From Acidobacteriota bacterium (GTDB taxonomy: Bacteria; Acidobacteriota; Terriglobia; Versatilivoradales; Versatilivoraceae): 64,000 nt of DNA. Numbering within the stretch: the stretch's first letter is position 1; every line of letters starts with the position of its first letter. Both the position numbers and the translations under genes were made by a program. Where the stretch lies: NCBI GenBank assembly GCA_022826755.1, contig JAJDUG010000022.1, forward strand, positions 1 through 64,000. The letters are read 5' to 3'. This document shows, one piece after another, positions 48,367-52,696 of this stretch. The notes under the pieces were generated by a model. The model ran no database searches. It was given only the letters and a program-made list of their open reading frames with translations, and was not told the origin of the DNA.

Positions 48367-48433
48367 AACGTTCTTGACCCACTCAAAGGCAACGCCCCTT
48401 GGGTCCGGATGAGGGACAACACAGCGAATCAGC

Positions 48434-49237
48434 TTCCCGTGCATCGGCAAGGTGCCGGTCTCAGAGGTCACCAGCGCCGACGTGCTTGAGATCCTCACCC
48501 CCCTCTGGCACCGGAAGGTAGCCACGGCCAAGCGGGTGCGCCAGCGCGTGCGGGCGGTGCTGGAATGGGCCGTGGCCATGGAATACAGGATCGACAACCC
48601 CTGTGACCGGATCGGCCCGGTGCTGGGTCCCCAACAAGACGTTACTGAGCACATGCAGGCCGTGCCCCATCGGGAGGCGGCTGCGGTGATCGGGAAGGTG
48701 CGAGGATCGACGGCATTGCCGGCCGCCAGGTGGTTGGCCCTTGAGGTCCTGGTGCTGACCGCCGCCAGATGTAGTGAGGTGCGGTGGGCCGAGTGGTCGG
48801 AGATCGATCGAGCCGGAAGAGTGTGAACCGTTCCGGCCAGGCGGATGAAGACGAACCGCCGGCACCGGGTGCCGCTGTGTGGACGCGCCCTGGAGATTCT
48901 CGAAGCGGCGCAGGCACTGGTGGGGGAAGCCGGTCCGCTGGTGTTCACCCATGGGGGCGGGAAGCCTTTCCATGACGGCATGCTGCGCCGCCTGTTGCGC
49001 GAGCTTGGGGTTGGTGCAGTGCCGCACGGTTTTCGTTCGACCTTCCGGGACTGGGCGGGTGAGGAGACCGACCATCCCCGGGAGGTGATCGAGGCAGCCC
49101 TGGCGTGTGTGGTCTGCAACCGGGTCGAGGCGGCCTATGCCCGCTCGGACCTGTTCGAGCGCCGGCGTCGCCTGATGGAGGAATGGGCATGCTATTGCCA
49201 GAGAAGTCCATCACCGTCCATTGAAGTCTATAAGTAA
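48434..49237 (+). pseudogene. Tyrosine integrase pseudogene, 5'-truncated with in-frame stop
   Basis: Homology to the intact integrase at 49331-50539 begins abruptly at FPCIGKVPVSEV, so about the first 140 codons are missing. The frame then runs to TGA at 48824-48826, where the intact gene has Trp in GVWTLPAKR; reading through, the same frame continues (TVPARRMKTNRRHRVPL) to 49237. The catalytic Arg (TAARCSEV), HGFR box and Tyr (AAYARSDLF) remain, but the late catalytic His is Cys (ALACVVCN instead of ALAHVVRN). The gene is therefore dead twice over. Confidence 0.85.
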
Positions 49238-49330: not shown

Positions 49331-50539
49331 ATGCATACTGTAAACGATCCCGCCCACTCTCCGCGAAGAACCAAGCCCAAAGGCTGCCATCCTGACAAGG
49401 CCCTGTCGGCTCCCTTCGTGCGTTCTGCACCACAGGGAAGACACGCCGACGGCAACGGGTTGTACCTGTTCGTGCAGCCCAGCGGAACCCGGAGCTGGAT
49501 TCAGCGGCTGGTCGTTCGCGGCCGACGCCGCGAGTTGGGACTTGGCAGCGTCCGGTTGGTCTCGCTGGCCGAGGCCCGGGAGAAGGCGCTGGTCAACCGC
49601 AAGCTCGCCCGTGAAGGCGGGGACCCCCTCGCCGAGAAGCGCCGGGCCGAAGCCATGCCGAGCTTCTCGGAAGCCGCCATGCGCGTGCAGGAACAGAAGC
49701 GGGCCGGCTGGCGCAGCCGGAGTCACGCGCAGACCTGGCTGAGCGGGCTGCAACGCTACGCCTTTCCGCGCATCGGGAAGATGCCGGTCTCGGAGGTGTC
49801 GAGCGCCGACGTGCTGGAGATTCTCTCGCCGATCTGGCACGTCAAGCCGGACATGGCCGGGAAGCTGCGCCAGCACATGCGGGCGGTGTTAGAATGGGCC
49901 GTGGCGATGGAGCTTCGCCTCGACAACCCGTGCGACCGCGTCGGACCGGTGCTGGGGCCTCAACACAAGGTCGTCGAGCACATGCGGGCCTTGCCTCACC
50001 GCAAGGTGGGGGCGGCCATCCGGACGGTGCGGGCATCGACGGGGGCGCCGGGGGTCAAGCTGGCCTTCGAGTTCCTGGTGCTCACGGCGGCGCGCTGGGG
50101 CGAGGTGCGGTGGGCCGAGTGGTCGGAGATCGATCGGGACGAGGGTGTGTGGACGCTCCCGGCGAAGCGGACGAAGGCGAACCGCCGGCACCGGGTGCCG
50201 CTGTGTGGCCGCGCCCTGGAGATTCTCGAGGCGGCGCGGGCGCTGGGGGACGGAGCCGGTCCACTGGTGTTCACCGGCCGGCCCGGGAGAGCGATCGAGG
50301 AGAAGCAGCTGCGTCGGCTGCTCGGGAAGCACAAGATCGCGGCCGTGCCGCACGGGTTCCGATCCAGTTTCCGGGACTGGGCGGCCGAGGAAACGGACCA
50401 TCCCCGCGAGGTCATCGAGGCGGCCCTGGCGCATGTGGTCCGGAACAGGGTCGAGGCGGCCTATGCGCGCTCGGACCTGTTCGAGCGCCGGCGCCGGCTC
50501 ATGGACGATTGGGCCGGCTACCTGGCCGGCCCGAGCTGA
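49331..50539 (+). CDS. Tyrosine site-specific integrase (DUF4102 arm domain, P4-like)
   Basis: 402 residues. An N-terminal arm-binding DUF4102 domain (about 25-110: SAPQGRHADGNGLYLFVQPS, RRRELGLGSVRLVSLAEARE) precedes a core-binding domain and the catalytic domain. The active set is Arg (LTAARWGEVRW), Lys (AKRTKANRR), His-x-x-Arg (HGFRSSFRDW), His (LAHVVRN) and nucleophile Tyr (EAAYARSDLF). The enzyme moves the genomic island. The upstream gap holds CCCTCATATATTGAGGG (a hairpin) and two GCAATCC direct repeats, possible regulatory or att-arm sites. The C-terminal codons recur at 52832 and 55133. Confidence 0.92.
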   Translation: MHTVNDPAHSPRRTKPKGCHPDKALSAPFVRSAPQGRHADGNGLYLFVQPSGTRSWIQRLVVRGRRRELGLGSVRLVSLAEAREKALVNRKLAREGGDPLAEKRRAEAMPSFSEAAMRVQEQKRAGWRSRSHAQTWLSGLQRYAFPRIGKMPVSEVSSADVLEILSPIWHVKPDMAGKLRQHMRAVLEWAVAMELRLDNPCDRVGPVLGPQHKVVEHMRALPHRKVGAAIRTVRASTGAPGVKLAFEFLVLTAARWGEVRWAEWSEIDRDEGVWTLPAKRTKANRRHRVPLCGRALEILEAARALGDGAGPLVFTGRPGRAIEEKQLRRLLGKHKIAAVPHGFRSSFRDWAAEETDHPREVIEAALAHVVRNRVEAAYARSDLFERRRRLMDDWAGYLAGPS

Positions 50540-51075
50540 GGGCCGCAGGCCGGAGCAGCGCTCGAAGGCCGTGCGAGGCGGGGGCAGCGGGGCCGGTGCC
50601 GCAACGCGTAGTACCGGGGAGCCAGCCTACCCAGTGTCATACACTGGGGCTGGCGAGGGGCTCCGGCCCCGTCGAACCCCAGACCGGGGAGAGTGCTCCC
50701 CAGGCCCCACCATCACCCCCGCCGCTCCCTTCTCCCTCTCCCTTGACCGAGGCCTCGATGGCGCCGGAAGCGACAGCAACGGGGCTGTTGCGGCGTTTCG
50801 GGGAAGCTTTCGACCACAACGGCGAGGTCTTCGCCTTCTGAGAGAAAACCGTTCGCGTGGTTGCAGTCACGCGCCACCCATGGGTGCCACAGGGGCTTTT
50901 TTGGTGGCGCGTTGGTCCGACTCCACCGCCTTGACCCCCAGAGGCGGATATCGTCGATCATTCCTCGGCCGTTGGAGGCCGGGTTTTCCTGCTCCCATTG
51001 GACGATCTTCTTTATGGCGGCATTGAGACCTCCAAGGTGTTCAACGGTGTCCCAATCGGCATCGGCGATGGCCTA
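50487..51075. repeat. Integrase-tail module, copy 1
   Basis: The end of the integrase gene and the following ~540 bp (GGGCCGCAGGCCGGAGCAGC onwards) recur in altered form at 52813-53505 and in part at 55133-55390. The right part (50800-51070) shows a minus-strand reading that is conserved between copies 1 and 2 (WEQENPASNGR), so it is probably decayed coding sequence. A GCGCCACC...GGTGGCGC hairpin lies near 50871-50910. Confidence 0.75.
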
Positions 51076-51273
51076 GCGAAGAACCGCTGCTTGAGGCCCG
51101 GTCGCGCCGCATCGACTGCAAGGTGTGGTGTCCACGGTCGGATCGATTTCCTCGTCTACACCCGTAGGGAACATAGTTGGGAGGGTCTCATCAGTACGAA
51201 TCCTGATAAACTCAAGGGATGGCTGGGAGAGTACGTCAAGCACTATGCTGAGGGGGTAGTGGCCATGCTCTAA
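51076..51273 (+). pseudogene. Possible C-terminal gene remnant before the nuclease gene
   Basis: An open frame ends at 51273 with the segment DFLVYTRREHSWEGLISTNP and KLKGWLGEYVKHYAEGVVAM, which looks protein-like. Its 5' part lies in the module that is better read on the minus strand, so this is likely a truncated gene tail joined to the repeat. The family is not recognised. Confidence 0.25.
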
Positions 51274-51368: not shown

Positions 51369-52696
51369 ATGCCGGATTTTGAGACAAGCGATTTCGATGA
51401 TCTCCAGGCACTCATGGACTCATATACCGTTCATGCCATCGGTGCCAACGAGCCGCCGACGCTGATGGAGATTGCCAGATTTCCACACCGGGAGAACGTC
51501 TTCAGCAACATTTTGGCGTTCCTACTCAACACAGAGGAGGTCCATGGTTTCAGGCAACTCTTCATCCGGTCGATCATGGCCGTCTATAGCAGTCGTTGCC
51601 CTGACGGCTGGCCGAAGAAAGGTCTGGACCTTGAAAGTATCCAAGTCACCGAGAAGGTCGAACGGGAGGTCATAACGGGTACGAATAAGCGAATCGACCT
51701 CCTGATCAAATGCGAGGACTTCGTGGTCTGCATCGAGAACAAAATTTGGTCTGGATTGCATAACGACCTAGGAGCCTGCGCCACGGAACACTCTTGAGGC
51801 CTTCAAGTGGACTATGGTCCCTATAATGGGTGAATAACTCGCAGAGAAAGGAATAGTTTTCCCTGTTCCATGTAAAATATCAACCGTTTTAGGGGAGGCT
51901 GTCCCTGTAAAATTTTCTGCGGCGCAGACTCCTAGGCGAGTACCGGGAACACTGCGAAAAACTCAATGATGGACATTGCGATTCCGTAGTGGGAATCGCC
52001 CTCAGTCCGAACTACGTCTCCAATCCGAGTCTTAAGACGCATCGCTTTTTCAGCATTACCTATGCTGCCGTCGTTGATGAAGTGCGCGAGCGCATGGGCA
52101 GCTACATCGGCTCTCACAACACTCAATACCAATATCTGCTCTTCGATTTTCTGGAGCAGGCCAGCCGCTTCTCAAGGACCAGTACCATGTCTGATGACCA
52201 ACGGAAGTTTCTCGAATTCTGGCGGAAAAACGAAGAGAAGATCAGCAACATCCAGAACATGTGCGATGCGATGAGGCAGAGCGTGAATACTATGGAAATG
52301 CCACAAGCCCATATCGACCAATGCATGGAGCGATTGACCGAACGGGAAAAAGAAGTCTTCAAGACTTGGATCTACCAACGCAATGTCTCTGTCTTTGATC
52401 TTGCAGGTGATGGTGACATTGACGGATGCAGATTATTCCTTGACGTCGAATTTCATCCTCTTCGCGTCACCCATTCCCTGTCCAGTCGGAGGAACAACCG
52501 CGGGCACGCTGCGCTGGCTTCCCGGATCAGTGACAAGTGCGGCATCAAATTCTCCATAGTTGAGCGTTCGGGCCGTCCCGGTCTCGTCTACGATCAATCC
52601 CCCTTTGAAGAATCGGTCCGTGAAAAGGCGGTGGCAATCTCCGTTGCAATCCTCAAGGAGATTGCCGCCATGCGCCTTAACGAGAGTCAAGGATGA
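51369..52696 (+). pseudogene. PD-(D/E)XK nuclease family gene split by a 160-bp insertion
   Basis: The 5' part encodes ENVFSNILAFLLN, then KRIDLLIKCEDFVVCIENKI with Asp110 and Glu123-x-Lys125, the PD-(D/E)XK nuclease core (PDDEXK_4-like). The frame is broken at codon 134 by an element at 51772-51931. The 3' part (from 51932) encodes GEYREHCEK..., RFFSITYAAVVDEVRERMG and a long helical and beta C-terminal half to 52696. Removing the element plus one CTAG restores a single 387-residue frame. Such nucleases are often defence or restriction genes of islands; the role here is inferred. Base composition is less GC-rich than the backbone. Confidence 0.85.
51772..51931. mobile_element. 160-bp non-autonomous element with CTAG target duplication
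   Basis: Ends are inverted: GAGCCTGCGCC at the left and GGCGCAGACTC at the right (10 of 11 pairs). CTAG stands at both flanks (51768-51771 and 51932-51935), the palindromic target duplication. It encodes no transposase. The GAG start and YTAR-type target resemble IS5-related elements; the parent is not in the window. Confidence 0.8.

Follow-up and report, generated by a model that had tools for sequence, protein, structure and literature searches.

The closest described systems come from the IS1182 family of insertion sequences (ISs) and the short nonautonomous elements (MITEs) linked to it. Methanosarcina acetivorans harbors, alongside ISMac2 (IS1182 family), MITEs in two lengths, 160 and 169 bp; 4-bp direct repeats flank the 160-bp type (PMC3852290, Table 4). 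ISPse1 of Paracoccus seriniphilus, an IS1182-family element of ~1.6 kb, has 16-bp inverted repeats and a 4-bp target duplication (PMC3281130), and IS1272 of Staphylococcus aureus, from the same family, is reported to replace stem-loop targets with no target duplication (PMC5678879). A literature search on CTAG as an IS1182 target gave nothing useful. The nuclease family relevant here, PDC-S26, is a candidate defence family in the PADLOC listing, and our literature search turned up no paper that names it. Here we describe a 160-bp element that interrupts a PD-(D/E)XK nuclease gene in the window, by which we mean the whole 64,000-nucleotide stretch of Acidobacteriota DNA that was analysed.

The interrupted nuclease gene and its empty site

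The gene and the element within it are arranged as follows (window coordinates):
51369..51767, + strand: 5′ part of the nuclease gene, codons 1-133, with the PD-(D/E)XK core (IDLLI...IENK), assigned from PF14281, PDC-S26 and the homologue
51768..51771, + strand: left CTAG, copy 1 of the 4-bp target duplication; a single CTAG in the intact homologue
51772..51931, + strand: nonautonomous element (MITE) of 160 bp, with GAGYCTGCGCC inverted ends and a second copy in the host; missing from the homologue
51932..51935, + strand: right CTAG, copy 2 of the target duplication
51932..52696, + strand: 3′ remainder of the nuclease gene, which stays open and is in frame once 164 bp are removed

The original prediction of a 160-bp element interrupting a nuclease gene, with CTAG at both flanks and GAGYCTGCGCC inverted ends, proved correct in every detail. 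The left end (GAGCCTGCGCC) and the reverse complement of the right end (GAGTCTGCGCC) correspond over 11 bp with one mismatch, and weaker similarity continues inward. The 15-mer CTAGGAGNCTGCGCC occurs nine times in the host genome versus zero times for a backward-read control pattern, so the ends are not a chance resemblance. The element is short, noncoding, with no long ORF of its own, and bounded by inverted repeats.

The ORF that starts at 51369 is interrupted at codon 134, the target CTAG spanning codons 134-135, and ends at a TGA (51795-51797) inside the element. Its product has 142 aa, of which the first 133 are native residues and the last 9 derive from the left CTAG together with element sequence. 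When codon 133 is joined to the second CTA codon, the result is an open frame of 387 aa that contains no further stop or frameshift, and the predicted restoration of a 387-residue PD-(D/E)XK protein by removal of 164 bp is thereby borne out; this length (160 + 4, not a multiple of three) can be removed in frame, as a target duplication predicts. In profile searches the 5′ part matches PF14281 PDDEXK_4 (E=2.9e-15), and both parts match PADLOC PDC-S26 (E=1.2e-30 for the 5′ part, E=3.4e-16 for the 3′ part). The intact homologue also matches PDC-S26, and the D...ExK core is included in the nuclease profile match. The ExK core lies upstream of the insertion, so its residues are retained in the 142-aa product, which lacks the remaining two thirds of the protein; the disrupted gene is most likely inactive. 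The host genome also contains a second, uninterrupted nuclease homologue, 35% identical (G000:C34:59059-59700).

With the 142-aa ORF as query, a scan of 84,980 species genomes returned one locus, L024 (JAPPFQ010000537.1), from the Acidobacteriota MAG RHO1_bin_34. The gene at this locus and one in a genome of the host's genus (G008:C249) have 100% protein identity at equal coordinates, and we therefore take L024 and G008 as one genome. Its nuclease gene is uninterrupted, encodes 381 aa and has 89% DNA identity to the joined window gene over 1,164 positions. At the empty site it reads ...ATAACGACCTAGGCGAATA...: CTAG occurs once and the 160 bp are absent. The proposed search of relatives for an uninterrupted gene thus recovered an exact empty site, and the 160 bp do not appear as coding sequence in this homologue, which excludes the outcome that had been named as refuting the original prediction. 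Protein identity to the homologue is 92% for the 5′ part and 79% for the 3′ part (against L024 residues 134-380), and Ka/Ks is 0.14 for codons 1-133 versus 0.55 for the remainder. Because the insertion looks recent, the higher downstream value is probably a property of the protein and not of decay after insertion.

Further copies of the element and an IS1182-type partner

A search of the host genome (G000) for further copies found a second full one at G000:C33:30631-30790, 158/160 identical and with CTAG on both sides, so that two nearly identical copies are present in one genome. This second copy interrupts a small ORF (MSIKAEYRN...VFSVDELRR / LAEDMPWL), and a paralogue with no insert (MSIKAEYRN...VFSEDELRRLAEDLPWL) lies ~0.9 kb downstream. 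Once the 160 bp and one CTAG are omitted, the ORF aligns without gaps to the paralogue over the site, where the paralogue reads CTCG; the second insertion was therefore also into coding DNA and left its target complete. The target duplication can accordingly be read against a known empty site for both copies, L024 for the first and the paralogue for the second. That the window insertion is recent, as had been proposed, agrees with the two differences in 160 positions between the copies and with a gene that has no further lesion of its frame.

Elsewhere, diverged full-length copies with the same architecture are found in G008 and G009 (73%) and a near-full diverged copy in G011 (69%), while G010 and host contig C1 hold a single end only; the diverged copies (about 70-73%) are those of sister species of the host. 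In a search of the 12 genomes obtained for the family and order of the host, hits to a 168-base query (the element plus CTAG on each side) were confined to the host's genus, and the 15-base end pattern also had one occurrence in a second genus (G003).

The last of the checks that had been proposed, a search for an IS with the same ends, found a complete one in a sister genome and fragments at contig ends in the host. In G010, a single-contig genome of the host's genus, an IS of 1,579 bp (2377282-2378860) lies between two CTAG sequences and has perfect 15-bp inverted ends (GAGTCTGCGCCGCAG). Its 440-aa transposase belongs to the IS1182 family (379 bits against NF033551, curated cut-off 270 bits) and also matches Pfam DDE_Tnp_1, DUF772 and DDE_Tnp_1_6. 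The right end of the MITE equals the left end of this IS over 19 bp (E=8e-7), and its left end matches the IS ends at 12/15 positions. In the host assembly, contigs C14, C15, C63 and C79 carry right ends of such an IS close to their termini, C23 has near its start an IS left end together with the beginning of a transposase, and C63 begins with a 64-aa transposase C-terminus that is 95% identical to that of G010. The host assembly yielded no complete autonomous IS and no complete transposase, and presence of the IS there is read from these fragments, which are what short-read assembly would be expected to yield for a repeated IS.

An origin of the MITE as a simple internal deletion of the G010 IS was rejected, since only the terminal 15-19 bp match. 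Because the MITE is unlike this IS beyond those termini, its direct parent may be another, somewhat different member of the IS1182 family. G010 also contains a second IS1182 transposase end (L039, G010:C1:5500-10500, around 2539-2918) in a frame reported open over 2,743 codons, flanked by TTAG instead of CTAG, at a place where the IS left end was not found; this transposase end may be fused to a long gene.

Probable mobilisation of the element

We hold with little doubt that an IS1182-type MITE inserted into the PD-(D/E)XK nuclease gene, duplicated CTAG and was mobilised in trans, at the likely cost of the gene's activity. A 160-bp MITE with IS1182-type ends entered the CTAG at codons 134-135 and duplicated this 4-bp target, and the TGA that it brought truncates the product just past the catalytic D...ExK core. 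The MITE codes for nothing and was most likely moved in trans by an IS1182-family transposase supplied by an IS that has the same ends and belongs to the same host group. The insertion with its empty site, the target duplication, the second copy and the IS with matching ends are observed directly; movement in trans by that IS, the loss of nuclease function and the role in defence are inferred from them and from homology. All the checks proposed for a recent insertion of a nonautonomous element support that reading.

The transposase that moved this MITE could instead have come from another family that recognises similar ends, for example an IS5-type enzyme. IS5-type enzymes prefer YTAR targets, the left end of the MITE differs from the IS ends at 3/15 positions, and the G010 transposase also has weak IS5-family matches. 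However, the sole IS found with these ends and CTAG, in a search that was not systematic across families, has an IS1182-family transposase well above the cut-off, and we consider a source in another family improbable. Slightly less probable again is a candidate reading of the MITE as a reversible switch, in which exact excision in some cells, possibly driven by a resident IS1182 transposase, would restore the nuclease and make defence phase-variable.

There is very little to recommend the idea that the nuclease is still made, with the element either belonging to the gene or leaving its RNA in the manner of an intron. The flanks do join exactly in frame, and the element as RNA folds better than shuffles (z -3.8), but a target duplication gives such a join automatically and inverted ends account for the long hairpin. 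Moreover, the homologue lacks the element, the region has no Rfam match at E<=1, and an unrelated gene carries this element too, with transposon ends and a target duplication; an intron or structured RNA was rejected on the absence of an Rfam match and of the insert in the homologue. An assembly artefact, in which the 160 bp were wrongly joined into the gene of a draft genome of 81 contigs, is just as implausible given that the insertion lies within an 80-kb contig, that the duplicated target is perfect, as are the two flanks, and that the second copy has the same anatomy elsewhere.

Neighbourhood and comparison with known systems

Integrase sequences lie on both sides of the nuclease gene (window coordinates):
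48422-49198: partial tyrosine integrase copy, 70% identical to the full gene and just upstream of it
49331-50539: full tyrosine integrase gene, 402 aa
52821-52916: integrase C-terminal remnant, just after the nuclease gene

The region seems to have been built by successive integrations. In L024 an ApeA-like HEPN gene stands directly 3′ of the intact nuclease (L024:2630-3950, PF18862 E=1.7e-11) and integrase C-terminus remnants occur at both ends of the contig, a layout consistent with a defence cassette within an island that integrases built. In the window, the integrase remnant follows straight after the nuclease and the ApeA-like neighbour is absent. The earlier description of the nuclease as a possible defence gene finds support, by homology, in the PDC-S26 matches and the ApeA-like neighbour of the relative, and we treat it as a candidate phage-defence gene. 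The short ORF before the nuclease (50998-51273) ends in TAA where L024 has GAA, the DNA being otherwise 90% identical; this upstream gene may be degraded too.

The locus provides a cleanly documented MITE insertion: both copies have their empty sites, an IS with corresponding ends is available, and the family is distributed within a single Acidobacteriota genus. It also exemplifies the probable loss of a candidate defence gene through transposition. A poorly described host group gains a MITE family, and no concept changes. The insertion is well supported and of an ordinary kind, IS1182-linked 160-bp MITEs having already been published from Methanosarcina.

Over the nuclease domain, PDC-S26 and PF14281 PDDEXK_4 match the window gene as well as the intact homologue; the window copy departs from these families in being interrupted. 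IS1272 shares its family with the partner IS (PMC5678879), but the window site lost nothing and its CTAG was duplicated; the stem-loop-replacing mode does not apply, because the empty site retains every base and one CTAG. ISPse1 resembles the partner IS in family, in its length of about 1.6 kb and in its short inverted repeats (16 bp) and shares the 4-bp target duplication, but is an autonomous IS of an alphaproteobacterium that was captured experimentally (PMC3281130). The MITEs of ISMac2 resemble the window MITE in having inverted repeats and a link to the IS1182 family and, for the 160-bp type, also in length and in the 4-bp direct repeats; they differ in their archaeal host, their longer inverted repeats (25-26 bp) and their higher copy numbers (14 and 7) (PMC3852290).
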